Shown one piece after another: positions 1,355 to 36,588 of a stretch of 64,000 bases of DNA. This stretch comes from Miscanthus floridulus (Eukaryota > Streptophyta > Magnoliopsida > Poales > Poaceae): the NCBI RefSeq assembly GCF_019320115.1, contig NC_089593.1:38107474-38171473 (forward strand), read 5' to 3'. The stretch's first letter is position 1. Each line of letters begins with the position of its first letter. The position numbers were made by a program, and so were the translations under genes. The notes below the pieces were generated by a model that saw only the letters and a program-made list of their open reading frames with translations, was not told the DNA's origin and did not search any database.

Positions 1355-2039
1355 TGTAACACCTCGGGTGTTAGCCTTGCATAACTTGACTTGCATAGCA
1401 TGAGAATGATCATAAAGCATTCATATATAAGCTTTGACACTTGAAACATTTGATTGAAACATATGCAACATTCTTATTATTTCATGTTTCCATGTGTATG
1501 TGCGTATGATCATGAGTGTAAACATGTAGATGATTGTGTGACCTTGCAAATAGCTTAAACATGTTTAGTATATCATCATGAACAACTTTGGTATTTATGA
1601 CTAGGGCTAATTAGGTCATTATGTCATAGTTCAAGTATGTACCATCCTCTGAATGTAGCTTGTTTGACCAAGTTTGAACTAGGTGTTAGAAACCTTGCAT
1701 GGAGGAGATCACTAAAGCAAAGTTGTAGTATTTGACATAAGGAACAACTTTTATTTTTGGGTCACTAACTGATTCAGCTCCTAGCATGTGTGAAATTGGA
1801 TCACAAAAATTAGAAAAATCAACATTTGCAACACTTAGCCGTTTTTGTTCTAAGTCATGCCAAGACAGTGCTGTCAGCCCGACCTTTGGTATGATATAAC
1901 TCAGTTTATGTTGCGAATTAGCACGAGATCATTGAACAACATTTGGAGATGGTACTTAGGACTATGACTTTTATTCTGAAAGAATTCACTGAATCGCTTT
2001 GCATAGGGAGTTATTTCGATTGCAAAACCCGCTGTCAGG

Positions 2040-2840
2040 CTTGGCTTCGTGGATGACTGACGAACTGAACCAGCGCTCGGTGGCCGACCGGCGCCAGAAC
2101 GCGAACGCCGCGTGGACGCGATGAAGGCCGCGCGTTGCCGCTGCTCTGATCCGCCGGGCAGCGCCAGGCCTGAGCCGGCCATTATCACCCCTCGTGCGCC
2201 CGCTCCATTCCCACTCCCTCCTGCTAGCTCTCTCCCTCTCCAGCGCCCTCCCTTGCTCTCGCCGTGGAACCAGGCAACGTCGTCGAGCTCCCGCAGCACC
2301 GCCGTCGCCATAGCCTGCACAGGCTCGCGACGAGCCATCCATTCATCACTACAGCTGCACCACCATCTCCCCAGCAACTCCCGGCGTCCCCCATTGCCTG
2401 TTGTTCCAGCTTGGTAAGCCACCGCAGCGCGCAACACCTCGCCGGAGCTCCGCCGCTAGTCCCGTCACCGTGGCCACGTTGCCTCCATCCACCATTGGCC
2501 ATGATAGCTTGTGGTATAGGATCGCCGTGGTCTAGAGATACTCGTCCACACCTTAGTTGGAGCCATCGTAGCTTCCATCGGCACCTCACCGTCGTTCAGC
2601 GCCACCGCTCCACCATGGCCGCCGCTGTCGTCACTAGCGTCAATGTTAGGGCTAGGCAAGTAGTGCAAACGATGCGCCTCGTCAAGTAGAACATCTTGTG
2701 AGGACGTCACTGCCGGCGGACTCGCCGTCGACGAGCCATGGCCACGCGAGCTTGCTCAGCGCCGCCGGCTCTATTTTGGTTTCACTGACAGGCGGGCCCT
2801 GCTGACCAGCGGGTCCCACCGGTCAGCGACTCCATGTATT
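2040..2840 (+). promoter_or_regulatory. GC-rich LTR leader block with a 5' splice-site-like signal
   Basis: A C-rich, CpG-rich block inside an otherwise AT-rich LTR. It contains the donor-like GGTAAG at 2413-2418. The equivalent block of every other Tekay-type LTR here also has a GTAA donor-like site: 13147 (TE1 3' LTR), 25485 (TE3), 29024 and 56244 (TE2). The likely partner is the TAG acceptor at 3963-3965 before the exon-like segment. I infer that this is the transcribed leader exon and its donor; the transcription start is not visible. Confidence 0.45.
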
Positions 2841-3964
2841 AAAGCTAGTTCATTTTGAATGCAGATTTCATATGTTTTGTAATTTTTGTATCTTCAGTTT
2901 GGTAGCTTCAAAAATTGTGAAATAAATTTGCTTGTGTTCCTTAGGAAGTGTAGTATTTAGGAAAAATATGTTCTTGACATTTATAGTAGAAATTTTTAGA
3001 GATTTAAATAGAGATTTGAAATGTGCTTTTGAATGCATTCAAATTTGTTTATTTTATATCTAGAGTTCCTGTACTCCAAAAATTATGAAATTTTTGTGGT
3101 AAGCTAGTCTTAGCATATATGAGCTTTGGTAAAAATTTGAAGATGAGTGCATGTGTAGATTTGTAATTATAGATTTTTCTTTTATAATTAGGAGATCCTT
3201 GTGTAAATTTTTATAAATTATTTAGGAATCCAATACTCATGAAATTTCTTGGAGGGTACCCTAGTAGTATATGGATGCTAAGAAAAATAGGAAATCTGTT
3301 GGTTGACACTTTTCAATAGGGTTTTCTAATTATGCTATTTCAAGCATTGCTGCCTTGTCATTTTTGTATAGGATTTTCTACTTGGCAAAATGACATGAAA
3401 TTTTTATAGTAGTCCTTTGATAGCATTAGTAAGGCACTGTAAATTTTTGAGAATTTATGAAGTACATCTGGTATATGTTTATTATTTAACCTAAATATCT
3501 CAGTAAAATAATAAAGGCATTTAAATAAATAGTTTGGGCTTCACCATTATATTATCTTAAATGTATTTGGTATGCTTAAACTGTTGGTAGATGTTATGTT
3601 GTCAAATTTTGAATGATTACATGAAGTAGAAGTATTGTTACTTTGTTTTGCATATTGAATAGTTTCCGGACAGATTCGGGAGTTTGATGAGTTGCATGTT
3701 GAAAATGATATGTACTGTAAAAATGGTTAATAACAAAGTTGTAGAGAATTTGATAAGCTTTCCAGAAAGTCTAGGATCACTGGATTTGGATTAGTAGAAC
3801 TCCAGTTATGAGTGAAACAAGTAGCTGCTATTTTGTGGTATAATCGATGCATTATGGAAGTAGATAATTAAATAATCGAGAAGAGATATGCACCTACTCA
3901 ATAAACATGATGCACTTGTTAACATATATGCATTCGTAATACTTATGCCATATTCATGCATCTA

Positions 3965-4138
3965 GGATCAGAGGAGGAGATAACATTGCTGGAATTCAAA
4001 GAAGCAGAGGAAGGGGACCAGTAGGAGAATCCACAAGCCACAGCTCCCGAAGGCGTGGAGCAGAACCCTGAAGAGCTCCTAGAGTGCCCTGACCACCGCC
4101 CTACTTCCTTTCTGCGAGGCAAGCCCCGGAGCATTCTA
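3965..4138 (+). other. Conserved exon-like peptide segment inside TE1 5' LTR
   Basis: About 58 codons read GSEEEITLLEF...EGVEQ...PDHRPTSFLRGKPRSIL, with one stop (TAG at the second Gln of a Gln pair). The segment follows a pyrimidine/TAG acceptor-like site. Counterparts are at 14655-14828, 27531-27701, 31066-31239 and 58381-58554. They keep the pattern LLEF/LEYE, acidic middle, (P/K)CLDH, P(T/S), F, (R/K)GKP, S-I even between diverged LTR families. No start codon lies in frame nearby, so it would need splicing or is a conserved RNA or regulatory stretch. Confidence 0.5.
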
Positions 4139-5192
4139 AGTCTCCCAGTAATTTACAAATGTTTACTTAAGTACATATGATTGATGCATTAGGTTATAAG
4201 AGTTGAATGGAACCACTTGATGCATATAAATTCCTTGTCCAGATATTAAACCTTTAACCGGTATAGGTCTAGGATCGAATAAATGCTTAGCCATGCTTAG
4301 ACCAGTAGAAGTCAGGTGATGTCCTGTCACCTGCGAGATATAGGTGGATACTAGAGCACGGTTGGCTATATTTACTATCGTGGAATAGAACCATGGGGTA
4401 AAAGAAAATCGAGACCGAACGGGAGGTCGATAGAGAAGCAACAAGACATGGAGGTCTTGGGTGTGGATCTATCCCCGTCTGTGTCGATTAAGGACCGTAC
4501 CATTGTTGGTGCTTCTGACAAGATTGAACGCATGCCTCTCACTTAGCTGGCCGGATAACTCGTTCCGACCGCGAAGCCGAGTAATTCAACTCAGGCCAGG
4601 ACCCGTTCTGTTGTGCGCTCCTTCCGAGGAACGATCAGACTGAGCCCAAGGGTAGGCTTGGCCTGAGCATCCTGGCATCTGGTGTTCTAGATTGTGCGGC
4701 GCAGGTACGAACCCGTGAAATGTGTACCTGAGTTGTACCAAGGGTGACCTAAGGCTATCATGGCTGGTAGACCTAGGTTTGTGTTAGGAATAAATTCCCA
4801 ACTGGTTGAAATCGATTTGAATCGCCAGTCTCTCCCGAATAGTGAGAAACTTGGCTAGTCCCAACATCGTAGTAACTGTGTTATGGAACATGATGGTTCG
4901 GATGAATATGGAATTACAATACCTACTATGGTTACTATTGTATGCTTCTCAATTGATATACCACATGTTTGGCACAGGATAGTTGCTAATCTAGAAATGG
5001 ATAGTTATAATTAACTCGATAAAGAAATTGTAACTGTACAATGAGTCAATGTCCTTTTATGCAAAATGTTGTCGAGTCACGTCCACTTATACAGCCTTGC
5101 ATAATCCTTGGAGTCATTTTATTTCTGGTTCATGACGGATAAGTCTAGCTGAGTAGCTTCTCGTACTCAGGGTTTTATTTCCCATTATTGCA

Positions 5193-5255
5193 GATGGCAC
5201 TGTGTATCATGGTTATTGCAAGAGTTGCTTCTATCCCGCTGTGCATGAGGAGTAA
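5193..5255 (+). other. Second conserved exon-like segment in TE1 5' LTR
   Basis: It lies directly after a pyrimidine-rich TTGCAG acceptor-like site. In one frame it reads DGTVYHGYCKSC...AVHEE and stop. The TE2 counterpart at 32317-32379 has the same length and ends the same way, with HGYCK-x-C and AV kept. Both are followed by a GAGTAAG-like sequence. It may be the last coding exon of a small LTR-encoded peptide; this is inference. Confidence 0.4.
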
Positions 5256-5618
5256 GCCTTGGGCAGGCTTCTTTATTAATCCCTATCCTTGCTTTTGTGG
5301 ACCGTGATCCTACTTGGCACTATATCAAACTATGTTGGAAACTTTATTTTCGAACTTAATTGCTTCCACTTTATCTATCAAACTCGGTTTGTAATAACTT
5401 TTATTCGTACTCTGATGATGAAATGTACCTGTGAACTTTATGTAATATGTGGCATGTATGTTGAATCATGTGCGATCTTGGTTGTTTTAAATCATTTATC
5501 GAGACCCGTCGTGGTACTCGACGGACTACCGGGTTTATATGGGTTCAAGTATGACAGTGCGACCGCTTGCGGGCTACCATTGTACTTGTACTCTTATAAA
5601 TTGGTCGGTTCTACGACA

Positions 5619-5632
5619 GCTAGCATCAGAGC
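5619..5632 (+). other. TE1 primer binding site (initiator Met tRNA type)
   Basis: Directly after the LTR, TAGCATCAGAGC at 5621-5632 matches TGGTATCAGAGC, the complement of the plant initiator tRNA-Met 3' end, at 10 of 12 positions. The two-base offset from the LTR end is usual for gypsy elements. Confidence 0.75.
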
Positions 5633-6389
5633 AAGATTCAACATTAATTGTCACAAGTGTATTTAAAACAAAAGTTTTTGTTTTCCAAAAACTCTTCTCG
5701 AGCAACTAATAGTTATATAAGAGGTATTTGAAATCTAAAGTGTGCCAATGATCACTTTCCTTATGCCCAAATTAAGAACTATTAGGTGGCTATTTAAGTA
5801 CTAACATGGGGGTTTTTACTTTGTCGTCCATATGGCAGTGCTATTGTATGGATACCATTCACTTGAGTGGTAATGTATGGATCAAATGCCCCTACGCCAA
5901 GGTAAGATGATGAGTGTATGACCGCAAGAAGTAAGCGTGCGGTCGGGGAGAGTTAGCTTTGGTATGGCTATGTATGCATGCTTGCATGTGTATATGGTGC
6001 GTATTTAATTGTGGGTTTAAATTATTGTCGGGTAGATTGATACAGAAAGTATATGTATGGGTATATATATATGGAAGTATTTACAATTACATTCTGCATA
6101 TTTCATTATGGGTTTAGGGCTGAAATGGAATTTTCTGTAGGTACACTGACAACGAAATGTGTAGCTCGACTAGTTACGCTATTTATGAGAGAACGAATGT
6201 ATGCCACCGTGTCTACCGTTAGAAACAAATTTTTCCTAAGTTTGTGAGGACGTACGGAACGAGCATGCATCATGATAAGTACCATTCACATAACTACATT
6301 GTTCCTCCCCTTATAAAATTCTTACTCAGTTAAGTAACTCTTATCCATTATGGCATTGTCTCACCAAGTGGTACATGTTAATGGTGCAG
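5633..6389 (+). promoter_or_regulatory. TE1 leader with probable intron (donor 5902, acceptor 6389)
   Basis: Non-coding leader between the primer site and ORF1. CCAAG/GTAAGA at 5897-5907 is a good 5' splice site and is conserved at the same relative place in TE2 (GTAAGA at 32988). The leader ends in GTGCAG immediately before the ORF1 ATG. Splicing would remove about 490 bases and put the ATG at the exon start. Small ORFs here, such as 6053-6247, have no counterpart in TE2 and are probably spurious. Confidence 0.5.
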
Positions 6390-7295
6390 ATGGCACGCAC
6401 AAAGCAGACCGCTCGCAAGTCCACCGGAGGCAGAGCTCCCAGCCGTTAGCTTGCTCCACGTACCCATCAATGTCACATGTTCCTTGGAGAGTTTGGGATG
6501 CCTACACTCTTGTGGAGAGTGCTCAGCTATGTAGGCTATCCTGACGGAATGGAACCCCGCTACTTCTGGGCGAATGAGCAGTTGGGGGAAGGTCTCTTAG
6601 TTACTGTGGAGGCCGTTGTTCTTCCCCGAGGTGATGATTCTAAGTGGACAGGTTGGTGTTATGAGTCAACTGGCAGGACTGCTGAAGAAGCAATTGGCAG
6701 GGCAGCCTTTGGGATCCTGAGGGATATCATGGATCATTTTCCTCAGGAGCTGGTAGCCGCTTTGGTTGGAGTTTTTCCAAGGGGCAACCCCTCCACTGAC
6801 TCATGGCAGCAGGCAAGAGGAAGATATTTGGAGATTGGTGCAGCAGAAGGGCAGAACAGTGATAACCCTTCCATGAGCGCCATGTTCGCAGTGATGAGAG
6901 TGTTAGATGGAGTAGAAGGTAGCCTCAGACGTGTGTCTGGTGCTCTGGGTCATGCCCATGAGGACTGATGTCAGCTTTAGAGGGAGCATGACGCTGAGAT
7001 TGAGAGGCTCACTGTAGAGATGGCTCGGTTAACTCACCAGAGGAATGCAGCCTGATCTAGGGAAGATGTTCTGAGAGCTCGACAGTTTGAGCTGGGGCAG
7101 TAGCTGGCCAATGCAGAAGAATACAACGATAACCTACATGAGGAGGTTCATCTGCTGAATAACCAGCTCCACCCTTATGTCCCACCTAGAGCCACAGAGA
7201 TGGATCTAGAAGAGGATGAGGAAGAAGAAGAAGTGGAGCCTGAGGAAGGAGATGATCCTACGTCTAACCTCGATAGTGATCATGATGAGGATTAG
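6390..7295 (+). pseudogene. TE1 ORF1: histone H3-tail-bearing retrotransposon protein, broken
   Basis: A 301-codon frame from the ATG behind GTGCAG to the TAG at 7293. Residues 2-14 are ARTKQTARKSTGG, identical to histone H3 residues 1-13; the next positions give R-A-P-S-R-stop-L-A-P-R against H3 K14-A-P-R-K-Q-L-A-T-K23. A unique domain follows (about 6486-6930; GEFGMPTLLWRVLSYVGY, then FPRGNP, DNPSMSAMF). After it come a likely coiled coil (about 6975-7160) and an acidic tail rich in Glu and Asp (about 7204-7292). In-frame stops lie at codon 20 (TAG), 6966 (TGA), 6978, 7050 and 7101. An open part remains from 6477 to 6968. There is no histone fold. It sits between leader and gag like the extra ORF of TE2 (33590-34625). 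Role unknown; a chromatin-directed function is inference. Confidence 0.8.
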
Positions 7296-7661
7296 AATGC
7301 TTAGTACTTAGTGGAAGAACCAATGTATCACCTTTATTCATGTAATGGACCTGTAGCTCGAATTTGGTAATAGTAATCCAACTATCATGTAATGTTGTTA
7401 ATCGCACGACTATCGCATGTTTGGTTGAACATCAATACGATTCCAGTCCTTTGTTGGTAATCACGATTTAAATTTGCGTGCGTTGTGAGCGTGATAAGTG
7501 GTCAAATTGGTGATGTCATGTTGCGAGAATGAATTGTTATGCCTCTGTTTTTGTTGTGATTTCAAGAAATTTCACCAGTAATTTCAGTTTGGCATGATTA
7601 CATAATTCATCTGCAATCTTGTGGCATCAACCAATAATCGCTTATTGTTGCAACTTCGTAG
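7296..7661 (+). other. Spacer between ORF1 and gag with acceptor-like end
   Basis: AT-rich, with no supported ORF. It ends in a pyrimidine-biased stretch and CTTCGTAG directly before the gag ATG; TE2 has CTTATTGTTGCAATTCTACAG at the same place. The shared CTTATTGTTGCAA and terminal AG suggest a 3' splice site that gives a gag-pol mRNA lacking ORF1. Confidence 0.45.
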
Positions 7662-8711
7662 ATGACGCGCACCTGTGCTGGAGCTGGTGGTAGCCAGGAT
7701 GGCAACCATGATGACTTGCCACCCCCACCACCACCGTCTGCTTAGGAGTTCTTTACCCAGTTCCTGGGGAGCCAAAGGACAATGGAGGAAGCTTTGTGCC
7801 TCATCGTGCAAAACACCGCTCATGGCCACCCACATCAACCAGGGGCCGAGCCAAATCAGCACAGTACATTCAAGGAGTTTCTGGACATGAAGCCTCCAAT
7901 CTTCAAGGTGGCTGAGGAACCACTGTAGGCTGACGAGTGGCTAAATACCATTGAGCGGAAATTTCGTCTGCTAAGGGTCACCGAGCATTTGAAAGCTGAG
8001 TATGCTTCTCATCAATTGCAAGGACCAGCAGGGATCTGGTGGACACATTTCCTATCATCTTTGCCTGCTAATGCATGAGTGACCTAGGAACAGTTCAAGC
8101 TGGCTTTTAGGGGACACCATATTCCCCCGGGCCTGATGCGCATGAAAGCAGCCGAATTTATGAGGCTCACTCAAGGAACAAAGTCACTCACAGAATATAT
8201 GCACGCATTCAACAACTTGTCCAGATATGCTCCAAGTTTCATGGATACTGAAGAGAAAAAGATAGAGAGTTTCAAGTGAGGTCTGGGTACTAAACTGATG
8301 AAGACTATGGCAAATTCTAGGTGTGCCACGTACAATGAGTTTATTAGTGATGCCTTGACCCAAGAAAACCACAACAACATGTATGTAGTTGCCAAGGGTC
8401 GCAAGAGGGCATATGAAGCCGGTGCATCCGGATCTTTCCAGTCAAAAGCGCCTATCACAGCTAGGCCACAATTCTATCCACCTGCACCCAAGTTTAGGCC
8501 TCCACCACCTAAAGATCAGAATAATAGGCCATAGAAACCATTCCGTAAGGCGTTCACTATTGCCTTACCAAAAGGAAATGGTAGTCAGGATAGCTCCACC
8601 GGATTCAGAAGTAATCAACCATGTTTCAACTGCAACCAACTGGGTCATTGGTCTAAGGAATGCCCCCACCCCAAGAAGAATGGCAACCAGAATCAGAACA
8701 ATCAGAGGCAG
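7662..8711 (+). pseudogene. gag: TE1 gag (capsid/nucleocapsid), broken
   Basis: The Gag frame starts at MTRTCAGAGG and is in phase with the protease frame downstream, so gag-pol was one polyprotein. The retrotransposon Gag capsid domain spans about 7880-8370 (FLDMKPPIF, EWLNTIE, WWTHF, FRGHHIPPGL, MRLTQGTKSLTEY). A CCHC zinc knuckle, [14 protein letters not shown], lies at 8622-8663. Stops interrupt at about 7743, 7926, 8076, 8085, 8277 and 8532; most are TAG or TGA where TE2 or family members have Gln, Arg or Trp. Gag would form the virus-like particle and bind the genomic RNA. It cannot be made whole now. Confidence 0.85.
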
Positions 8712-10403
8712 GTGAATGCCAGGGCACATCAGGGACACGTGCATTATACCGCTGTTGAAGAAGTGCCCGCCGGAGAAGTTGTCATGGCTGGTATGTTTCT
8801 CGTCAACAAGCATCCCGCTGTTGTTTTATTTGATTCAGGAGCTTCTCATTCATTTATGAGTCAAGCATTTGCATCTAGACATGATCAAGAAATAATTGAA
8901 GTAAGTAAAGGGGGTTATAACATAAGTTCAGCAGGGGGTACTGTTACTACCAAAAAGATAGTCAAAAATGTACTCATCTCTATACAAGAGAGGGAGTACA
9001 CAATGGATTTGATAATATTGCCTAGGTTATCGATAAGTGTAATCTTAGGCATGAATTGGATGAAGGATCATGGTGTTCTTATTGACACTAGCACCCGCAC
9101 TATTATGTTGAGGGAACCCATGAGAGGGAATGCTTTTCTAGTACCACTCTCCCGCAATTTTGAACCCCAACATTTAGCTTGTGCTATCCAAACCACCACA
9201 ATATGTGATATCCCCGTGGTTTGTGAGTTTCTAGATGTATTTCCAAAGGAATTACCAGGCTTACCACCTGATAGGGAGGTGGAATTTAAGATTGAATTAG
9301 TGTCGGGTATGGCACCCATATCAAGAAGGCCCTACAGAATGCCACCTAATGAGTTAGCGGAACTTAAGGTTCAATTGCAAGATCTATTGGACAAGGGTCT
9401 TATCCAACCTAGCTCATCTCCGTGGGGATGTCCAGCCTTGTTTGTGAAAAAGAAGGACAAGTCACTAAGAATGTGTGTAGATTACAAACCACTCAATGCT
9501 GTGACCATTAAGAACAAATATCCGTTGCCCCGCATCGACATCTTGTTCGATCAGCTAGCGAAGGCAAAGGTATTCTCCAAAATTGACTTGAGATCAGGCT
9601 ACCATCAGATAAAGATCAGACCGGAGGATATACCCAAAACTACTTTCTCTACTAGGTACGGCTTATATGAGTATTTGGTTATGTCTTTCGGGCTAACAAA
9701 TGCTCTAGCCTACTTTATGTACCTAATGAACTCGATATTCATGCCCGAACTTGACAAGTTCGTGGTCGTGTTTATCGATGATATATTGATTTATTCAGAA
9801 AATGAGTCAGATCATAAAGAGCATCTGAGGATTGTCCTATCCAGATTAAGGGAGCATAAGCTATATGCGAAGTTTAGCAAATGTGAATTTTGGTTGAGCA
9901 AAGTACCTTGCTTAGGTCACATTTTATCAAGTGATGGAATCTCTGTAGACCCATCAAAAGTACAAGAAGTCATGGATTGGAAAGCCCCAACTTTGGTTCA
10001 TGAAGTTTGGAGTTTTCTAGGGTTAGCAGGATATTATCGTCATTTCATTCTGGATTTCTCAAAGATAGCTAAGCCTATGACCAAACTACTTCAGAAAGAT
10101 GAGAAGTACAAATGGACACCAAAATGTGAAACAGCTTTTCACACCCTCAGAACCTTGTTGACTACAGCACCTGTGCTAGCACAATCAGACATTGAAAAGC
10201 CTTTTGATGTATTTTGTGATGCATTGGGAATAGGTTTGGGATGTGTGCTTATGCAAGAAGGAAGAGTTATTGCATATGCTTCTCGGCAATTGAGAAAACA
10301 TGAAGTCAACTACCCTACACATGATTTAGAACTTGCAGCAGTTGTTCATGCATTAAAGATATGGAGACATTATTTGTTGGGCAATGTATGTCATATATAC
10401 TGA
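8712..10403 (+). CDS. pol: TE1 protease, reverse transcriptase and RNase H (open 563-codon stretch)
   Basis: A long uninterrupted frame in phase with gag; the listed start is an internal Met. The aspartic protease has [10 protein letters not shown] at about residues 37-46. Reverse transcriptase occupies about residues 185-400: [27 protein letters not shown], and the catalytic [13 protein letters not shown] with both Asp. The connection region follows, and RNase H begins at [11 protein letters not shown] with ASRQL and the Glu in THDLELAAV. The frame ends at 10403 because of a net frame change within the RNase H HIYTDHKS motif. Catalytic residues look intact, so this is the best preserved coding part of the element. 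It would copy the RNA into cDNA in cytoplasmic particles. Confidence 0.9.
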
Positions 10404-12072
10404 CCACAAAAGTCTCAAGTATATCTTTACCCAACCAAAGCTGAACATAAGACAACGAAGATGGTTAGAATTGATTAAGGACTATAATTTAGAAGTGCAT
10501 TACCATCCGGGTAAAGCTAATGTAGTAGCAGATGCACTCAGTCGAAAGTCCCATTGCAACACTATAGAAGCATTATTGGAAGATGGATTCAACTTGTTAC
10601 ATCCTACTGTACTACACAATATCACGATCAGTTGCTCCCTTGAGAGCAAAATCATAGAGTTACAGCCGACAGATGTAGGAATAAGTCACATCAAGAGAAA
10701 AATGCAAGAGCAAGAAACCAAACATTTTAGATTGGACGAAAGAGGTGTATTATGGTTTGAGGACCGACTGGTGGTACCAAAAGACCATGAGCTAAGGAAT
10801 CAAATTTTAGATGAAGCTCACTCATCCAAATTGTCTATCCATCCAGGTAGTAGTAAGATGTACCAAGATTTGAAAACCCGTTTTTGGTGGACTAAGATGA
10901 AGAAAGAGATCGCAGCCTATGTTGCTTGGTGTGATAACTATAGTAGAGTAAAAGCTATCCATATGAAAACTGCTGGATTACTTCAGCCATTGCCTATTCC
11001 AGGATGGAAATGGGAGGAAATCAGCATGGACTTTATCATAGGCCTTCCAATGATGCCACAAGGTCATGATTCACTATGGGTTATTGTTGATCGTCTCACC
11101 AAGTCAGCACACTTTATACCTATGAACACACGGTATATAGTTGGAAAATACGCTGAGATATATGTTTCCCAAATCATGAGACTGCATGGAGTACCCAGGA
11201 CTATAATCTTAGATCAAGGACCATAGTTCATAGCTCGTTTCTGGGAGCACTTACACCAGGCTTTGGGAACCAAGCTAATCAGAAGTTCGGCATACCATCC
11301 GCAAACTTCAGGACAGATAGAGCGAGTGAACCAAATCCTAGAAGATTTACTTAGAGCTTGTGTTATATCTTCAAAAGGTTCATGGGAGAAATGGTTACCA
11401 TTAGCTGAGTTCTCCTATAACAACAGTTATCAAGCGAGTATCAAAATGGCTCCATTTGAAGCCTTGTATGGCAGAAAATATAGAACTCCATTGAATTGGA
11501 TTGAGCCCGGTGAAAGGAGATACTTTGGTATTGATTTTGTCAATGAAGCCGAAGAGCAAGTACGTATCATCCAACAACATATGAAGGCAGCTCAATCAAG
11601 ACAAAAGAGTTATGCCAACAGAAGAAGAAGACCACTAACTTTTGAAGTGGGTGACTATGTATACTTGAGAGTATCACCCATGAAAGGTGTGAAAAGATTT
11701 GGGATGAAAAAGAAGCTTTCACCAAGATATGTAGGGAAAAACAAAATTTTGGAACAAAAAGGAAATGTTACGTATAAGTTATAGCTTCCACCAGAAATGA
11801 GTGCAATATTTGATGTGTTCCATGTTTCCCAGTTGAAGAAATGTCTTCGAGTACCTGAAGAAGCTATTGCACCCACCAACGTGCAGCTTCAATCGGATTT
11901 GACCTATGAAGAAAAGCCAATTCGAGTATTAGAGGAGATGGAGAGAGTGACAAGGAGTAAGATTATTAAGTTCTATAAGGTGGTATGGAACAATCATAGT
12001 GAACAAGATGCTACGTGAGAAAGAGAAGATTATCTACGAGAAGTTTATCCCGCCTTTTTCCAAGAATGGTAG
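10384..12072 (+). pseudogene. pol: TE1 RNase H end, integrase and chromodomain, broken
   Basis: Continues pol in another phase after the break near 10401. RNase H finishes with [10 protein letters not shown]. Integrase: the HHCC finger has [10 protein letters not shown] but the second Cys of the CxxC pair is Tyr (WCDNYSRVK). The core has Asp in SMDFIIGL, Asp in LDQGP and Glu in QIERVNQ. Stops at 11224 (TAG after DQGP), 11782 (TAG, KL-stop-LP) and 12016 (TGA where TGG gives DATW). The chromodomain (about 11908-12063) reads EEKPIRVLEEMERV...KVVWNNHSEQDAT...YPAFF; in chromoviruses it binds histone marks and guides integration. The original stop is 12070-12072. Confidence 0.88.
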
Positions 12073-12101
12073 GTATTACAAATCTCGGGACAAGATTTTT
12101 A
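12073..12101 (+). other. TE1 3' untranslated spacer
   Basis: Short non-coding gap between the pol stop and the polypurine tract. Confidence 0.7.
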
Positions 12102-12115
12102 TAAGGGGGAGGGGC
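12102..12115 (+). other. TE1 polypurine tract
   Basis: TAAGGGGGAGGGGC abuts the 3' LTR. TE2 (55214-55226) has the same tract and TE3 (24475-24487) a near-identical one. It primes plus-strand DNA synthesis. Confidence 0.85.
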
Positions 12116-14654
12116 TATAACACCTTGGGTGTTAGCCTTGCATAACTTGACTTGCATAGCATGAGCATGATCATAAAGCATTCATATATAAGCTTTGACA
12201 CTTGAAACATTGATTGAAACATATGCAACATTCTTATTATTTCATGTTTCCATGTGTATGTGCATATGATCATGAGTGTAAACATGTAGATGATTGTGTG
12301 ACCCTGCAAATAGCTTAAACATGTTTAGTATATCATCATGAACAACTTTGGTATTTATGACTAGGGCTAATTAGGTCATTATGTCATAGTTCAAGTATGT
12401 ACCATCCTCTGAATGTAGCTTGTTTGACCAAGTTTGAACTAGGTGTTAGAAACCTTGCATGGAGGAGATCACTAAAGCAAAGTTGTAGTATTTGACATAA
12501 GGAACAACTTTTATTTTTGGGTCACTAACTGATTCAGCTCCTAGCATGTGTGAAATTGGATCACAAAAATTGGAAAAATCAACATTTGCAACACTTAGCC
12601 GTTTTTGTTCTAAGTCATGCCCTGACAGTGCTGTCAGCCCGACTTTTGGTACGATATAACTCAGTTTATGTTGTGAATTAGCACGAGATCATTGAACAAC
12701 ATTTGGAGATGGTACTTAGGACTACGACTTTTGTTCTGAAAGAATTCACTAAATCACTTTGCATAGGGAGTTATTTCGATTGCAAAACCCGCTGTCACGC
12801 TCGGCTTCGTGGATGACTAACGAACTGAACCAGCGCTCGGTGGCCGACCGGCGCCAGAACACGAACGCCGCATGGACACGATGAAGGCCACGCGTCGCCG
12901 CTGCTCTGATCCACTGGGCAGCTCGTGTGCGCCCGCTCCATTCCCACTCCCTCCCGCCAGCTCTCTCCCTCTCCAACGCCCTCCCTTGCTCTCACCGCGG
13001 AACCAGGCAACGCCGCTGAGCTCCCACAGCACCGCCGTCGCCATAGCCTACATAGGCTCGCGACGAGCCATCCATTCATCACCGCAGCAGCACCACCATC
13101 TCCCCAGCAACTCCCGGCATCCCCCATTGCCCGATGTTCCAGCTTGGTAAGCCACCACAGCGCGCAACACCTCGCCGGAGCTCCGCCGCTAGTCCCGTCA
13201 CCGTGGCCACGTCGCCTCCGTCCACCATTGGCCGTGATAGCTTGTGGTATAGGATCGCCGTGGTCTAGAGATACTCATCCATGCCTTAGTTGGAGCCACC
13301 ATAGCTTCCACCAGCACCTCACCATCGTTCAGCGCCACCACTCTGCCATGGCCGCCGCCATCGTCACTAGCGTCGATGTTAGGGCCGGGCAAGTAGTGCA
13401 AACGAGTGGACTCGCCGTCGATGAGCCATGGCCGCGCGAGCTTGCTCAGCGCCGTCGGCTCTATTTTGGTTTCACCGACAGGCGGGCCCTGCTGACCAGC
13501 GGGTCCCACCGGTCAGCGACTCCATGTATTAAAGTTAGTTCATTTTGAATGCAGATTTCATATGTTTTGTAATTTTTGTATCTTTAGTTTGGTAGCTTCA
13601 AAATTTGTGAAATAAATTTGTTAGTGTTCCCTAGGAAGTGTAGTATTTAGGAAAAATATGTTCTTGACATTTACAGTAGAAATGTTTGGAGATTTAAATA
13701 GAGATTTGAAATGTGCTTTTGAATGCATTCAAATTTGTTTATTTGATATCTAGAGTTCCTGTGCTCCAAAAATTATGAAATTTTTGTAGTAAGCTAGTCT
13801 TAGCATATATGAGCTCTGGTCAAAATTTGAAGATGAGTGCATGTGTAGATTTGTAGTTATAGATTTTTCTTTTATAATTAGGAGATCCTTGTGTAAATTT
13901 TTATAAATTATTTAGGAATCCAATACTCATGAAATTTGTTGGAGGGTATCCTAGTAGTATATGGATGCTAAGAAAAATAGGAAATATGTTGCTTGACAAT
14001 TTTCAATAGGGTTTTCTAATTATGCTATTTCAAGCATTGCTGCCTTGTTATTTTTGTATAGGATGTTCTACTTGGCAAAATGACATGAAATTTTTATAGT
14101 AGTCCTTTGATAGCATTAGTAAGGCACTGTAAATTTTTGAGAATTTATGAAGTACATCTGGTATATGTTTATTATTTAACCTAAATATCTCAGTAAAATA
14201 ATAAAGGCATTTAAATAAATAGTTTGGTCTTCACCATTATATTATCTTAAATGTATTTGGTATGCTTAAACTGTTGGTAGATGTTATGTTGTCAAATTTT
14301 GACTGATTACATGAAGTAGAAGTATTGTTACTTTGTTTTGCATATTGAATAGTTTCCGGACAGATTCGGAAGTTTGATGAGTTGCATATTGAAAATGATG
14401 TGTACTGTAAAAATGGTTAATAACAAAGTTGTAGAGAATTTGATAAGCTCTCCAGAAAGTCTAGGATCACTAGATTTGGATTAGTAGAACTCCAGTTATG
14501 AGTGAAACAAGTAGCTGCTATTTTGTGGTATAATCGATGCATTATGGAAGTAGATAATTAAATAATCGAGAAGAGATATGCACCTACTCAATAAACATGA
14601 TGCACTTGTTAACATAGATGCATTCGTAATACTTATGCCGTATTCTTGCATCTA

Positions 14655-14828
14655 GGATCGGAGGAGGAGATAACATTGCTGGAATTCGAAGAAGCAGAGG
14701 AAGGGGACCAGCAGGAGAATCCGCAAGCCGTAGCTCCCGAAGGCGTCGAGCAGTACCCTGAAGAGCTCCCAAAGTGTCTTGACCACCGCCCTACTTTCTT
14801 TATGCGAGGCAAGCCCTGGAGAATTCTA
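14655..14828 (+). other. Conserved exon-like peptide segment, TE1 3' LTR copy
   Basis: Uninterrupted here: GSEEEITLLEFEEAEEG...PEELPKCLDHRPTFFMRGKP...IL. This copy keeps CAG where the 5' copy has TAG, so the open frame is likely ancestral. Confidence 0.5.
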
Positions 14829-15881
14829 AGTCTCCTAGTAATTTACAAATGTTTACTTAAGTACTTATGATTAAATGCATTAGGTTATAAGAGTTGAATG
14901 GAACCACTTGATGCATATAAATTCCTTGTCCAGATATTAAACCTTTAACCGGTATAGGTCCAGGATCGAATAAATGCTTAGCCATGCTTAGACCGGTAGA
15001 AGTCGGGTGATGTCCTGTCACCTGCGAGATATAGGTGGATACCGGAGCACGGTTGGCTATATTTGCTATCGTGGAATAGAACCATGGGGTAAAAGAAAAT
15101 CGAGACCGGACGGGAAGTCGATAGAGAAGCAACAAGATATGGAGGTCTTGGGTGTGGATCTATCCCCATCTGTGTCGATTAAGGACTATACCATTGTTGG
15201 CGCTTTTGACAAGATTGAACGCAAGCCTCTCACTTAGCTGGCCAGATAACTCGTTTCGACCGTGAAGCCGAGTAATTCAACTCAGGCCGGGACCCGTTCT
15301 GTTGTGCGCTCCTTCCGGGGAACGATCAGACTGAGCCCAAGGGTAGGCTTGGCCTGAGCATCCTGGCATCTGGTGTTCCAGATTGTGTGGCGTGGTACGG
15401 ACCCACAAAATGTGTACCTGAGTTGTACCAAAGGTGACCTAAGGCTATCGTGGCTGGTAGACCTGGGTTTGTGTTAGGAATAAATTCACAGCTGGTTGAA
15501 ATCGATTTGAATCGCCGTCTCTCCCGGATAGTGAGAAACTTGGCTAGTCCCAACATCGTAGTAACTGTGTTATGGAACATAATGGTTCGGATGAATATGG
15601 AATTACAATACCTGCTATGGTTACTATTGTATGCTTCTGAATTGATATACCACATGTTTGGCACAGGATAGTTGCTAATCTAGAAATGGATTGTTATAAT
15701 TAACTTGATAAAGAAATTGTAACTATACAATGAGTCAATGTCCTTTTATGCAAGATGTTGTCGAGTCACGTCCACTTATACAGCCTTGCATAATCCTTGG
15801 AGTCATTTTATTTCTGGTTCATGACGGATAAGTCTAGCTGAGTACCTTCTCGTACTTAGGGTTTTATTTCCCATTGTTGCA

Positions 15882-15944
15882 GATGGCACTATGTATCATG
15901 GTTATTGCAAGAGTTGCTTCTATCCCGCTGTGCATGAGGAGTAA
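15882..15944 (+). other. Second exon-like segment, TE1 3' LTR copy
   Basis: Same TTGCAG-ATGGCACT context and HGYCKSC frame as 5193-5255. Confidence 0.4.
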
Positions 15945-16306
15945 GCCTTGGGCAGGCTTCTTTATTAATCCCTATCCTTGCTTTTGTGGACCGTGATCCT
16001 ACTTGGCACTGTATCAAACTATGTTGGAAACTTTATTTTCGAACTTAATTGCTTCCGCTTTATCTATCAAACTCGGTTTGTAATAACTTTTATTCGTACT
16101 CTAATGATGAAATGTACCTATGAACTTTATGAATATGTGGCATGTATGTTGAATCATGTGCGATCTTGGTTGTTGTAAATCGTTTATCGAGACCCGTTGT
16201 GGTACTCGACGGACTACCGGGTTTATATGGGTTCAAGTATGACAGTGCGACCGCTTGCGGGCTACCATTGTACTTGTACTCTTATAAATTGGTTGGTTCT
16301 GCGACA

Positions 16307-16311
16307 CTTTG
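16307..16311. repeat. TE1 target site duplication, right copy (CTTTG)
   Basis: Exact copy of 1350-1354; the interrupted flank resumes here. Confidence 0.9.
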
Positions 16312-24017: not shown

Positions 24018-24443
24018 ATACGCTAAACTTTGAAGTGGGAGATTATGTGTATGTAAAAGTTTCGCCCATGAAGGGTGTGTAGAGGTTTGGAGTAAAGAGG
24101 AAGCTTGCACCCAGGTATGTAGGAACATACTAGATTTTTTAACAGAAGGGAAAGGTAGCCTACAAGTTGCAACTTCCCCAAGAAATGAGTGCGATTTTCG
24201 ATGTCTTCCATGTTTCTCAGCTAAGAAAATGTCTTTGCGTACCTGACGAAGCCATTGAACCCACTATATTAAGCTCCAATCCAACTTGACTTATGAAGAG
24301 AAACCAATATGAGTTTTGGAAGAAATGGAGAGAGTAACCCAAAGCATGGTCATCAAGTTCTACAAGGTGGTGTGGAATAACCATAGTGAGCAAGATGCTA
24401 CATGGGAATGAGAGGATTACCCAGCCTTTTATGAAGAATGGTA
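24018..24443 (+). pseudogene. pol: TE3 integrase C-terminus and chromodomain, 3' fragment only
   Basis: Starts abruptly at a match to TE1 about 11640: LNFEVGDYVYVKVSPMKGV, then VYKLQLPQEMSAIFDVFHVSQL, then a chromodomain (EEMERV...FYKVVWNNHSEQDATW). Stops interrupt it (TAG in MKGV-stop-RF, TGA after SNPT). It ends with EEW and TAG at 24441-24443. Everything upstream of TE3 has been lost, apparently by deletion. Confidence 0.8.
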
Positions 24444-24474
24444 GGTCATTCAAATATTGGGACAAGATTTCTAT

Positions 24475-24487
24475 ATGGGGGAGGGGC
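24475..24487 (+). other. TE3 polypurine tract
   Basis: GGGGGAGGGGC next to the LTR start at 24488, as in TE1 and TE2. Confidence 0.75.
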
Positions 24488-27400
24488 TATAACATGCTAG
24501 TGTCAAGCATTGCATTTGGCACTTGCATTTCATGAGCACAAGCATCATCCAAGCATTCATGAGCATGAGCATATGAAGTTTCATTTCATTCACCTTGTTT
24601 ATATCACATGTGATGTTGATCATATACATGTATATGCTTGTGATCATGTGTGACCACTAAAAAAGATGGTTGTGAGGTCTCAAAAACACCTTAGATAGGT
24701 CTAGGATGTTAAATGGAACAATGTTTGTATTCATGACATGGGCCAATTTTTCATTATACTACTTTGACTAGAGTTGAACTATAGCATAGAGTGTTTGCAT
24801 GGTAGTGCACCCTTAATAAAATTTGTAGGTCTCGACATGGGTAACAAACTTTATTTAAGTGTCATGAGATAATTTAGTGCCTAACATAGTCAAAAATAGC
24901 TCCAAAGTAGCAATCAAATGCTGTTTTCATGACTTAGAAATTTTGCTAAGTCAAAAGGCTGTTTACAGTTTCAAGTGACCCACTTTGGAGCTTTGTAATT
25001 TGAAAACCAGCTCGAATTAGACCAAGATCATTCAAGCAAAGTTGTAGATCTTCTAATCTTCTATAGCTCTACAATTCTTAGTAATGATGTTTTTGCTAAA
25101 TTGCCACGGCTTAGGAGTACCAAATGCTTCAACTCACGCTGTTAGTCAGCCTGATGGCCGATCTGAACTAGATGTTGCGCGCGATGTCATGGCCGACCAG
25201 CATAGGCCGCTTGCGCCATGTGGCGGCTATACACCAGCGTCACCCTGCCCTACCATGCCACAAAGGTGAGCGCTCGGCCACCCATGCCCTCATGCCCTTA
25301 CTTTCGCTCTTGTCCTCTCCATCTCGCTCGAGCGTGGCTCTAGAGCAGAGCAAAGCATAGCGACGCTGTCGTCGCCAGCCAAGCACATCGCCACCACCGC
25401 ACCGTCACCCAATTAACCTCACACGTAGCTCTGTTGTGATCAACTCCACCTCCTTGAACAGCTAGCACCACTAGACAAGCCCAGGTAAGGCCACATTGCA
25501 TGTCACCATCACCACCATGCCCACGGTGCGCCATCGAGCCTCGAGCTTGCCATCTCCACTGCTCCCCTACCTTCCTCTCATTTGGTCCATCTTTGCCTTA
25601 GGTCCTAGAAGCTAGAGCCATCACCCACTTAACCGCTACTGCCGTGTCGGTGCGGGAACGTGCGTCTACCATGGTTGCGAGCACAAGCTCACTATGGTCG
25701 TCCCTAACCAGTCCCCATCATCCCCCTCTGACATGTGTTTCAGTGCTACCATCAACCCTAGCAACTTATCTCATGATAGAGACCCATCACCAACTGCCAT
25801 TTCATCAGAATGGTGACCTTACCATCACCACGCTCGTGCCACCATGCCGCCATGCATGTGGCCATGCCCCTCCGACACCGCTACTAACCCTTATCCATGC
25901 CCGTTAGGTCCGCTAGGTCACAACAAAGCCATAGCCGAGCTCGCCCTAGGCCATCATGGATGGAGTTGGCTAGTACGCCGCTGAGAACCCCCACCGTGCC
26001 ACCATGGTTGCCGACGAGGTAGCTCCGGTGATCCACCGGGCCAACTGAGCGTACTAGTAGATGCGCGAGAGAATGGGGAACACGACGCTGGTAACCTCGC
26101 CGCTGGTGAGCTCACCATCGATGAGCTATGGTCGGTCAATCGCTGTGCCCTGCTCTATCTCGCTGAAGCGTGGGCCCATTGACTCACGGGGCCCAACTGT
26201 CACTCAGGGTTTTGAATCTTTTCTTTATTTATTTTTCTAGATTTTGTTGCAAGCTTCAAAAATTCATAAGTGGAGCTTGGAATGTCCAAATTGAGTGAAC
26301 CAAATTTTGTTGGATTCATCATGAAGTGTACTATTTGATAAAAATATGAAACCTACTGTTTGGAGTATTTTTCTAGGGGAATTAAATCAAGTTAGATAAG
26401 TGCTTTTAAATTAGTTTCTATCTTGTAAAATGCATAACTTGAGCTAGAGAAATGCTAAAAATGTGATTCTAATTTTGTTGGTCTTGTGTTGACATGCTCT
26501 AGCTAGGAAAAATATTAGTCCTTTAGTAGGCAACTTGAAATATGGTCTTACTATTTAACCTAGAATAATTGCTAGTTTCTGGTGAAATTAATTAGGGTAG
26601 ATATACATAAATTTTGATCATGCAAATTTTTACACAGTGTTCTTGTGCTAAAAGGAAAGTAGGAAAAATATGAAATCTATTGTTTGTGTAGAGGTGACTA
26701 TACTTATCCAAATGAAATGAAATTTGTTTAGTAGACTATTAGGGTCATGTGTAGGCTACTGTAATTTTCTAAGAATTTATTGAGCACTGGAAATATTTAC
26801 CCTTTAAATCATCTTATTATATAAGGAAATTAATAAATGCATGTAAATAAGTTATTGGGCTTAACCATGATGTTTTCTATAGTGCATGTAATGCACATGG
26901 TCTGTTGATATTGGTAGTTATGCTCAAAGTTAATTGGTTATAGGCAGCTAGTTAATTATTGCTCTATAATTCAACTAGATGGCTGCATGTGTAGTTTCTG
27001 TTGTGGTGACAATTTCGTGATAATAATTATCTCTTCTGTGAAACTTGTTGACAATAAAATTGTAGATAACTTACTCATCTATATTGTCCTAAAATTTCAT
27101 AGTTACAGGCTAAAGGGTTTGAGAGTTATAGCTTCTAGAAGTCTTCTAGCAGAGTTGCTTATTCTTTGGACAGATCTAAATAATTGAATTGTTTGACCTA
27201 GCTAACTATTGAATCACCTTATGATGATTATATGAAAGTTGTAGATAATTTTATAATCTTTCCAGAAAGTTCAAGATCATGTCATTTGAATGTGTAAAAC
27301 TCCTGGTAAGGTCAAAACAAGTGGCTGCTGTCTTGTAGTCCAGAAAATGCTTTAAATGGATGTTTGATTAGTTACTAGAGAAGAGATATGCACCTACTCT

Positions 27401-28158
27401 GTAAAATACAATTAATCATGCTGTCACCTTAGTACCTTATTGTTAAGGACATTTATGTTTATACATCATAACATATCATTCATATCACTACCTATGCATT
27501 CTTGTATCTTATTTGGTGCTCATGCATATAGGATCGTCGGAAGGAATCACGCTATTGGAATTCGAGGTTGTGGACCAAGAGGACTAGGAAGCACCGTAGC
27601 AAGGAGCTCCAAAAGGTGAAGCACAGGTCCCAAAAGAGTTTCCAGAGTGCATGGATCATAATCCCACCTCTTTTCTAAAAGGCAAGGCCCAGAGCATTCT
27701 AAGCCTCCTATGTTTTTACAAATATCACTTGCGTCCTTTATGTTTGATGCATTAGGTTATAGGAGTTGATTGGAAACACTTGATGCATATAACTTCCTTG
27801 TCTAGAAATATACCTTAAACCTTGTGTAGGTCCAGGATCGAGTATATGCTTAGCCATGCTTAGCTCAGTAAAAGTCGGATGATTTCCTATCGTCTGTGAG
27901 ATATAGGTGGATACCGGAGCATAGTTAGCTATATTTGCTATCGTGGAAAAGAACCATGGGATAATGTAACTAGAGGCTAGGTGGAGTCTATGTGTAGGTT
28001 GACTCATGTGATTCATCTATGCCAATTAAGGACCACATTGTTGGAGTCCCTCTTGTCATTTTGAACGCATGCCTCTCACTTAGCTGGCTGGATAACTCGT
28101 TCCGACCGCGAAGCCGAGTAGCTCAACTTAGGCTAGGACCCATTAAGTGAAATTGTGC
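24488..28158 (+). repeat. TE3 3' LTR, 3'-truncated
   Basis: Starts TATAACATGCTAGTGTCAAGC after the polypurine tract. Structure parallels the TE1 LTR: a GC-rich block at about 25110-26210 with a CCAG/GTAAGG donor-like site at 25484, a long AT-rich tract, an exon-like segment at 27531-27701, then a stretch matching TE1 14860-15300. At about 28159 the sequence switches to the TE2 LTR, so roughly the last 1 kb is missing. Confidence 0.8.
27531..27701 (+). other. Conserved exon-like peptide segment, TE3 LTR copy
   Basis: Follows ATATAG. Reads GSSEGITLLEFE...FPECMDHNPTSFLKGKAQSIL with two stops in the middle. Confirms conservation of the ends in a third LTR family. Confidence 0.5.
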
Positions 28159-32760: not shown

Positions 32761-33155
32761 GTTCAACATTAAACTTGTCATATGTGTATTTCAAACAAAG
32801 GTTTTATTTTAAAAAAATCTAAAGTATGCCGGTGGTCATCTCCTTTATGCCCAGTTAAGGACTATTAGATGGCTATTTAAGTACTAACATGGGATGGGTT
32901 TTTACTTTTGTTGTCCACACCACGTGCTATTGTATGGATGCCATTCACTTGAGTGGTAATGTATGGATCGAATGCCTCTATGCCTAGGTAAGAAGGTAAG
33001 TTGATGAGTGGCATGACCGCAAGATGTGAGCGTGTGGTCGGGGAGAGCTAGCTTTGATACGGCTATATATGCATGCTTGCAAGTGTGTATGGTGCGTATT
33101 TAATTGTGGGTAATAAATTGTCATCAAGTAGCTTTGATATAGAAGTATATATATT

Positions 33156-33221
<66 letters not shown>

Positions 33222-33589
33222 AAAGTGTTTAGTTTACCACTCTCATATATCCTATTGTTCTTCAATTTCAACCTAGAGCCCACATTACATTCTTGTACAT
33301 GTAAGTGTTGGGATGGGCTGAAATGAATCTTCTGCAGGTACACTAACAATGAAACGTGTAGCTCATTTAGTTACGATTATATTGAGAGAACGTATGTATG
33401 CCACCGCATATATCGTTAAGGATTTAATTTTTCCTAAGTTTGTGAGGACGTATGGAACATGCATGCATCATGATAAATCATTCATTCATATCATTACATT
33501 GTTCCTCCCCCTTATAAGTTTTAGATTATGTTATGTAACCCTTTTCTATGATCGCATTGTCTCACAGGAGTTATACCATTTTGATACAG
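32761..33589 (+). promoter_or_regulatory. TE2 leader with conserved donor (32988) and acceptor (33589)
   Basis: Aligns with the TE1 leader, including the CCATTCACTTGAGTGGTAAT segment and the GTAAGA donor at 32988. Ends TTGATACAG before the ORF1 ATG. A dinucleotide microsatellite interrupts it. Confidence 0.5.
33159..33220. repeat. (AT)n(GT)n microsatellite
   Basis: About 20 AT units followed by 10 GT units within the TE2 leader. Confidence 0.95.
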
Positions 33590-34625
33590 ATGGCAGCCCT
33601 AGGAGCCCCTGTTGCAAGCAACACCTTTTTGGCACTGTTTGGGACTCCCACCCTACTATGGAGGGTACTACACTCGGTTGGGTATGCTAAACCGCCTTGA
33701 TACTTTTGGAGTGAAGTGGTAACTGAGGGACAATAGTGGTATGATGTACGGGTGACTATCCCATCCTGTGCTGATCACCCACAGTGGCAAGGCTGGAGTG
33801 TGGAGTCAAATGGGTAGACACTTGGAATGGTGCCCAAGTTGCAGCTTTCGAGGTCCTTAGTGAGATATGTCTGGAGTTTGGGGACGAGCTTGTCAGTGGT
33901 CCTGCCAGATCCTTTCCTCAGGTGGACCCTATGCAAACCACTTGGACCTAACCAGGCGGTTGGTAAGAGACCGGGGTGAAAGAGCGGGAAGTAGTAATGT
34001 TGCCATGAGTGCCATGTATGTTGTTACAAAGATGTTTTACTCTCGCTAGGATAGCTACATCAATTGTATGCAAGAGCTCCGAAGAGCATAGGCTGCATAG
34101 CGTAGGATGTGAGGACATGTGTGTAGGCACCATAGGGTAGTTAGAGCAACTCAGAATGAGATAGGTAATTATATGACAGCCTTGGAAGCTCATCGGGGGT
34201 AGTTTGTCCATGCTGTTGCTGAGAGGGATGCAACCATTGTAGAGGTTCAGGGGATCCGTGCGGAGAGAGACGAGGCTATTCATCTTGCTGAGTCTAGGGA
34301 GGCTACCTAGATCAAGGCTATGTTTTAGGCTACTAGGTAGGCAACCTGGTTTGATAACATAGAGGCAGAGTATAGACACCAGATCAGAGAGCAGCCGGAG
34401 AACATTGAGGAGCTTTAGGTGGCTGTCCACCACCTCAATAATATCATCCATCCCATTCCTACCCCAGATGCTCTAGTAGAGGAAGATCCCAATGTGTTGA
34501 TTGCTGAGGACGATGGCATGGAGGTGGACGCCGAGGCCGAGCCTAAAGATGAGGAGATCGAGCCTTTTTAGGACGACCACGGTAATGGTGTGTCCGACAT
34601 TGACAACGACCACCCCGAGGAGTAG
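33590..34625 (+). pseudogene. TE2 ORF1, broken; lacks the H3-like tail
   Basis: Begins MAALGAPVASNTFLALFG and then runs into the same domain as TE1 ORF1 (GTPTLLWRVLHSVGY against GMPTLLWRVLSYVGY). Stops appear early (TGA at KPP-stop-YFW, TAG at GQ-stop-WY) and at least one frame change occurs. A heptad-rich stretch (about 34160-34440) and an acidic tail (LVEEDPNVLIAEDDGMEVDAE onward, to TAG at 34623) are kept. No trace of ARTKQTARKS is seen in any frame at the N-terminus, so the histone-like tail is specific to the TE1 lineage or was lost here. Confidence 0.75.
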
Positions 34626-35221: not shown

Positions 35222-36588
35222 TGACAGGTACCATAAGAAGGGGTCCCCCTAAGCAAAAACCAAAAAATTGCTTAGACCCTGTCAAAATCAAAGCCAAGAG
35301 ACAACTATTGGCTAACCCCTGGCCTTGTCTGAGGCCACCAAATTTCCACCTCGCTCGAGGCCTCACACGAAAGGCCTTGGATGGTCTACCAAATCTCTAC
35401 CTCACTCGAGGCCTCACACGAAAGGCCTCAGATAGTCTACCAATTCTCTACCTCGCTCGAGGCCTCGGATAAGGAACTGATTCTCTGTCTCGCTCAAGGC
35501 CCCGCGCGTAAAGCCTCGGACGAGGTGCCGATTCTCTGCCTCGCTCGAGGCTAGCTCAGCAAACAACCTCGTCGCCTCTGCCTTGACTGATCTCCCTAGC
35601 AGAATGTCATGTCCAATTAATGCAACCAACCACTCCCACGACATCAGCCGGACGATGGCTCAACACAGCAGAGCGGCCGACGAGATGAGAAGTCGCATCA
35701 ACACCATGCCGCCTGGGATAGGACAGGGCAGGGGTTACCGCCCGCTGTGCTTGGTACTGTGCCCATGACCGACGCCTGCACTGCACTATGCTACCTAACC
35801 CTTGCTCTAGGAACAACATGGCATGGGGAGTCAAGTCCGGGCCACTATTGCCTTGGAATCAGTGTACAGGACCAACTGCTCCCTCCAAGCCTCAGCAATC
35901 CACTGTAGGGTCTCAGTAGCCTCGGGATTCGCGCCAACTGAGTCTCAGCTCTTTACGCGGTCAACACACAGCGGCCGGCACATCGTCCGCCATGCCCTAC
36001 GTCAAGTTATCACTGGAGCTCCCACGTCACACAGGATTGGGTGTGACCGGCACGTCGCTCCAGTGCATCAAGGACAGAGGCCACTCCGTCGACCATGACA
36101 CCACCGTGATAAGCTATAGGGCTCGGAGACGCCACCTCCACTCATAGGATGCTATGTAGCGAATGCATGTATCACCCCTGTCCCCCCTTCAACTATAAAA
36201 GGGAGGGACCGGGGCCATTTCTAGGGATGAGCTCACGGGATAGACAAACACGAACACAGATAGACTAGCACAGATAGGCTCACTCACTCATGCCAGTGAC
36301 ACCCTGTAACACGCATGCTTCCCCACTGCCTAAGATCAACATCTCAAGCAATTCACACCACTCCACGCAGAGACCTGGGGCTAGCTCCCTCTCTTGCCCC
36401 GCTTGTAACCCCCTACTACAAGCACTTCGGTGCAAGGAATACAAGATCGATCTCTCGAACTGGACGTAGGGCACCTCTTGCCTGAACCAGTATAAACCTT
36501 GTGTCTCTTTGCATCACCATCCGAGATTAGGGGCATGCAGTACATTTTCACTAGTTGGTTGAGGGCCCACCGGTCCAAAACACCGACA
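35222..36588 (+). repeat. TE4 5' LTR (1367 bp)
   Basis: TGACAGGTACC to CACCGACA, matching 49643-51054. Contains about five imperfect 45-50 bp subrepeats (about 35340-35570) built on CTCGCTCGAGGCCTC and ACGAAAGGCCT. It lacks about 36 bases that the 3' copy has near 50370-50410. Confidence 0.92.
36194..36200 (+). promoter_or_regulatory. TE4 5' LTR TATA box
   Basis: CTATAAAAGGGAGGG, identical in the 3' LTR (50664-50670), about 390 bases before the LTR end. Probable Pol II core promoter of the element. Confidence 0.75.

Follow-up and report, generated by a model that had tools for sequence, protein, structure and literature searches.

A histone H3-like N-terminal tail on the ORF0 proteins of a grass retrotransposon family, a possible mimic of the H3K9 substrate

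In a 64-kb stretch of Miscanthus floridulus DNA (the window), a Ty3/gypsy LTR retrotransposon at 1355–16306 holds an extra open reading frame, ORF0, that begins as histone H3 does. Translated from position 6390 on the forward strand, ORF0 codons 1–14 read MARTKQTARKSTGG, the start of histone H3. The frame as a whole reads MARTKQTARKSTGGRAPSR, a stop and then LAPR, and H3 residues 1–13 follow the start Met without a mismatch. The original prediction had claimed this identity, and its residue-by-residue list (Arg at K14, a TAG at Q19 and so on) is correct at every residue. The H3-like tail occupies the 19 codons that precede the codon-20 stop (6390–6446, + strand; translation, tblastn and profile), with similarity extending to 6461. 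We tentatively propose, at somewhat less than an even chance, that the tail is a mimic of the K9 substrate that acts on host silencing.

With histone H3 as the query, tblastn against the window returned 6390–6461 (24 aa, 75% identity, E = 5.2e-7); no other H3-like stretch in the 64 kb fell below E = 0.2, the next match being at 0.21. A profile built from the N-terminal pieces of eight family proteins matched histone H3 chains in the PDB with E = 1e-12 over profile positions 1–24, and in the lower H3 rows mostly positions 1–28 were matched. These two values and the family-wide presence of the tail rule out a chance resemblance to H3, in agreement with the earlier claim. The view that the tail is grafted on a non-histone protein also held: no Pfam match was found in 6477–6968 at E ≤ 1, and the histone family is absent among the Pfam matches listed for eight relatives. 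Unlike H3 itself, with which the window copy shares residues 1–13, ORF0 has no histone fold. From the identity that runs from residue 1 in H3 order, we infer that capture of the 5′ end of an H3 gene is the best explanation. The window copy itself is a dead remnant (6390–7295, + strand; translation and homologues) with several stops. The one at codon 20 lies just past the tail and leaves a 19-residue peptide as the most that this copy could yield; there are relatives that lack the codon-20 stop.

The element that carries ORF0 is bounded by a 5′ LTR of 4264 nt (1355–5618, + strand, TGTAACACC...CGACA) and a 3′ LTR of 4191 nt (12116–16306, + strand), both located by self-comparison with their ends read. 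The pair is 94.3% identical between 1357–5618 and 12118–16306, and the target-site duplication CTTTG lies at 1350–1354 ahead of the 5′ LTR and at 16307–16311 after the 3′ LTR. A gag region read from the sequence spans 7662–8711 (+ strand, end approximate), with its ATG directly after AG. It is followed by pol at 8712–11784 (+ strand), in which Pfam on three ORFs gave an aspartic protease, RT, RNase H, integrase with an H2C2 zinc finger and an SH3_Tf2-1-like domain; the order protease–RT–RNase H–integrase is of the Ty3 type. Tekay type II chromodomains are described, in passages of PMC3350952, by the motifs (K/R)-X-(L/T)-R-X-(k/r), V43/W45 and EEXTWEXE. Compared by eye with these, the integrase end (11899–12045, + strand, limits approximate) is chromodomain-like: RVTRSK and KVVW are seen, and a stop breaks the third motif region. 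Neither Pfam nor PDB sequence searches detected a chromodomain at this end. The LTRs longer than 3 kb and the extra ORF between the 5′ LTR and gag give the element a Retrosat2-type layout. In passages of Gao et al. 2012 (PMC3485330), Retrosat2, RIRE3, RIRE8, ZMsat2, Sorsat2 and Brasat2 likewise have an ORF0 before gag-pol and a Ty3 pol, and Retrosat2 likewise has LTRs longer than 3 kb, a likeness by layout. The same passages describe ORF0 from grasses only, and Retrosat-2 is placed under Tekay in a section of Neumann et al. (PMC6317226). By its two eye-read chromodomain motifs and its Retrosat2-like layout, the element resembles the Tekay type. Rfam gave no matches over the window.

The tail is a property of the family. 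A query of ORF0 residues 30 onward, which is free of the tail, matched 144 proteins (best 120 of 144 examined), and a second tail-free search with a profile matched 445 (best 120 of 445 examined); among the matches listed, the two gave 157 distinct proteins. The MPTLLW anchor, as searched, is present in 71 of the 157, and 15 of these 71 have at least 15 residues ahead of it, the other 56 beginning at or near the anchor and being uninformative on the tail. In 14 of the 15 the tail stands at the start or within 3 residues of it, much changed in one case (P0155), and the fifteenth, P0125, begins at about residue 20 and is uninformative. P0111 also bears the tail, though it was missed by the MPTLLW pattern. 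All 15 informative relatives among the matches listed therefore carry it, an outcome in favour of the original prediction, for which copies lacking the tail would have been a refutation. As these relatives are divergent and came from tail-free queries, a one-off insertion is ruled out. A third search, biased toward the tail by having it in the query, gave 25 matches, nine of them new tail-bearing proteins. Sequence patterns matched 17 stretches in viral contigs and 33 in bacterial or archaeal genomes, and tblastn confirmed none of either set as relatives.

We counted the tail residues (H3 numbering) in 25 sequences: the 15 relatives, nine from the third search, which had the tail in its query, and the window copy. 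K9, P16 and L20 are present in all 25; A1, T3, A7, S10, T11, G13 and A21 in 24; R2, T6 and A15 in 23; R8 in 21; R17 in 17; and Q5 in 15, with Leu in nine. Because K4 is lost in some sequences and K9 in none, K9 is the constant lysine. The lysine pattern that the original prediction gave for this copy, in which K4 and K9 are kept and K14, K18 and K23 are Arg, extends to the relatives for K9 and largely for K14 (Arg in 21, Lys in 2) and K23 (Arg in 22, Lys in none). It is refined at K18, which is never Lys but mostly His (17, with Arg in 6), and at K4, kept in 21 of 25 and otherwise Arg (3, and in one subfamily consensus) or Trp (1). Retention of A-R-T-(K/R)-x-T-A-R-K-S-T with loss of K14, K18 and K23 suggests that H3K9 enzymes and readers are involved and not just charge, which favours the mimic. 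The tail could instead serve mainly for nuclear import or deposition, with any K9 methylation incidental. In H3, the tail contains a signal for import and is bound by importins and chaperones; the ORF0 tail is basic and is disordered in the model, and the 5′ extra ORF proteins of Poaceae Tekay elements are predicted to be nuclear in passages of PMC11728184. For import, however, neither the exact order TARKST nor K9 in every sequence would be required, and the other basic positions vary (Arg or His for K14, K18 and K23; R17 in 17 of 25), so we regard this explanation as somewhat unlikely. The constancy of K9 also has to be read with care. The replacements of R8 are Cys, His or Trp, as expected from CpG decay, whereas Lys codons contain no CpG; part of the constancy may therefore be mutational rather than selective, and on its own it is no proof of selection.

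To compare the tail with the rest of the protein, we used four subfamily consensuses, A, B, C and D, from 9, 5, 4 and 1 sequences (Met = 1); B and C draw mostly on the third, tail-biased search, and the count excludes P0100 and P0155, each of them the sole sequence of its kind. Between the consensuses, 14 of 16 tail positions (2–17) are invariant, against 5 of 13 in the linker (18–31) and 39 of 76 in the domain (Fisher p = 0.008 and 0.006, respectively). Identity to the H3 tail is 19/23 in A and C and 17/23 in B and D, and K14, K18 and K23 are replaced in all four. By pairs, four of the six comparisons among A–D show a tail excess over the domain at p < 0.05; in pairs with P0100 or P0155 a significant excess appears in 0 of 9 over the domain and in 2 of 9 over the linker (B-E and D1-E). 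Parsimony on the domain tree of 19 sequences, from which P0111, P0159, P0160, P0165 and P0167 were omitted because their bodies are shifted, shortened or recombinant, gave 1.41 changes per site for positions 1–17, 4.14 for the linker and 2.43 for positions 38–117. The tail thus changes less than the adjoining linker (p = 0.002), and as far as it was run, the check on neutral evolution named in the original prediction came out in its favour. Compared with the dsRBD-like domain, the lower rate of the tail per site falls short of significance (p = 0.088), which counts against the mimic reading, as does the lack of an excess in most pairs with P0100 or P0155. Over the entire ORF0, passages of Gao et al. 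(PMC3485330) give a mean Ka of 0.257 and Ks of 1.647 in four Oryza elements.

A second element in the window, nested and broken, bears on how the tail persists. Its LTR sequence starts from about 28154 and 55376, its gag ATG is at 34986, and its ORF0 (MAALGAPVASNTFLALFGTPTLLWRVL..., 33590–34625, + strand; tblastn and reading of frames) survives as body remnants over three frames, without an H3 tail. A related ORF0 without the tail means that ORF0 can persist tail-less, which also counts against the mimic reading. Other repeats surround this element. The 3′ part of a third related element (integrase end and LTR, 24029–28158) adjoins its LTR; two repeats at 35227–36588 and 49648–51054, 87% identical, are probably the LTRs of an element nested in it; and overlapping direct repeats at 47865–49428 have pieces 77–87% identical by self-comparison.

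The tail might, then, be a frozen accident, in which a single capture persisted by descent and recombination with selection on the start codon and the frame only. The tail-less family of the second element fits such an account, as does the parsimony result, in which the difference between tail and domain did not reach p < 0.05. Recombination between ORF0 elements does occur: P0165 (residues 1–161), an apparent recombinant, has a tail and leader like those of the window copy and a body like that of the second element. Against it, the linker directly behind the tail is far less constant, and Leu at residue 5 largely tracks the body (consensuses B and D, P0100 and P0155, with P0045 in A as the exception), so that most tails came down together with their bodies and were not recently copied across. 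We consider a frozen accident unlikely.

The body behind the tail was examined through models of the relatives P0136 and P0121, both of which have an alpha-beta-beta-beta-alpha fold followed by a long helix. In the window the domain lies at 6498–6737 (+ strand, starting MPTLLWRV; tblastn of P0121, fold from the relatives' models), and the region matching the long, coiled-coil-like helix at 6867–7170 (+ strand, limits approximate; P0121 model H124-266 and tblastn). The structure matches listed for both models are led by dsRBDs, none of them reaching E ≤ 0.001, and the viral structure library gave no match at E ≤ 0.001. A dsrm or dsRBD Pfam profile is absent among the matches listed to E = 10 for 8 proteins (25 of 27 matches for P0128). 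RNA-binding dsRBDs have KKxAK where the last helix begins; KK is absent there in 22 of 22 aligned sequences, in which T (20/22), P (16/22) and E (17/22) are found. In the model of a relative, the tail is of low confidence (disordered) and the body is folded. The models suggest that the ORF0 body is a dsRNA-binding-domain-like fold plus a long helix. Metabolic hydrolase-like functions were proposed for the Retrosat2-type ORF0 in passages of PMC3485330; the listed matches of our two models are led by dsRBDs, which makes such enzyme roles appear less likely. The 5′ additional ORF proteins of maize Tekay and sorghum Sb7 are described in passages of PMC11728184 (2024) as having a DRBM-like fold by Foldseek (TM 0.35–0.37) and a long C-terminal helix and as predicted nuclear, a likeness to ORF0 by description only. 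The dsRBD-like fold is thus already published.

The leader offers a route by which the tail could come to stand at the start of a protein. A candidate intron at 5902–6389 (+ strand), recognised by consensus sites only, has an AG/GTAAG donor and a CAG/ATG acceptor that abuts the ORF0 start. The second element, about 69% identical, has the same donor and acceptor at aligned positions (32988–33589), and both elements have AG/ATG at the gag start (7662 and 34986). From these sites, the leader intron may be spliced alternatively to ORF0 or to gag. With CAG right before the ATG, Met would be the first codon of the exon and a Gln would be expected ahead of it; Gln precedes the tail Met in 6 of 6 homologues with upstream residues (P0091, P0111, P0116, P0158, P0165 and P0167), of which at least four are of one subfamily. 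The leader at 5651–6389 contains 31 ATGs, and since 8 of the 31 would stay in the first exon, splicing alone leaves ATGs uncleared.

For the favoured mimic, we infer a sequence of events running from capture and splicing to the ATG, through methylation and binding, to an effect on silencing. An ancestral Tekay-type Ty3/gypsy element would have acquired some 23–28 codons from the 5′ coding end of a histone H3 gene of its host and fused them in frame, at the start codon, to ORF0, and the joint would have been kept because the tail serves as a histone H3K9 mimic. Once Met is removed, the protein would begin with a free ART(K)xTARKST, in which K9 alone among the lysines is constant. The tail may then be methylated by H3K9 methyltransferases of the host, and H3K9me readers (CMT-type or HP1-like chromodomain proteins) may bind it once methylated. 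The dsRBD-like body and long helix would let the protein form oligomers and link it to partners, which may belong to the RNA-silencing machinery. ORF0 would so act at the host transposon-silencing machinery, most likely as a decoy, or else as a tether to H3K9me chromatin. The reader could also be the element's own: the methylated tail may be bound by the type II chromodomain of its integrase, tethering ORF0 to the integration complex. The same element has the Tekay-type CHD_II-like stretch read by eye, and the partner or mechanism of CHD_II is described as not found or not yet identified in passages of PMC3350952, PMC6317226 and PMC12786077. The same passages describe CHD_II as lacking a full aromatic cage, however, and Tekay-type elements without such an ORF0 exist according to parts of Gao et al. 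(PMC3485330); we hold this to be very improbable. A joint reading, in which ORF0 would act on both arms of plant transposon silencing, with H3K9 methyltransferases and readers engaged by the tail, Dicer/DRB partners by the body, and the integrase chromodomain perhaps one of the readers, also seems improbable to us.

The similarity to H3 is best treated as already noted. Steinbauerova et al. in 2011 reportedly described 5′ extra ORFs in Poaceae chromoviruses, some partly similar to the histone H3 gene, and are said to have explained this by transduction or recombination, reportedly with nothing on the conservation of K9, the loss of the other lysines, a dsRBD-like body or splicing. Cellular H3K9-like mimics such as G9a and ATF7IP are likewise non-histone proteins with a methylatable lysine set in an H3K9-like context. 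The G9a and ATF7IP mimics are short internal ARKS/T motifs; in contrast, the ORF0 tail is longer, runs from residue 1 and sits on a transposon protein. The word 'histone' does not occur in the main texts of PMC3485330, PMC11728184 and PMC7264820, nor do the letters MARTK or ARTKQ in the main text of PMC11728184, and no paper announcing the H3 tail in these ORFs is among the matches listed from the titles and abstract starts of open-licence PMC. What the present analysis adds is the conservation centred on K9, the loss of the other lysines, the relative without a tail and the arrangement of the splice sites.

H3K9 methylation is a main plant transposon-silencing mark. If the mimic reading is true, a transposon that shows the silencing substrate on its own protein would be making a direct molecular counter-move. 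It would also give the grass ORF0 a testable candidate function, where passages of PMC3485330 and PMC11728184 offer structure-based guesses only, and offer type II chromodomains a candidate ligand, where parts of the literature describe their partner as unidentified.
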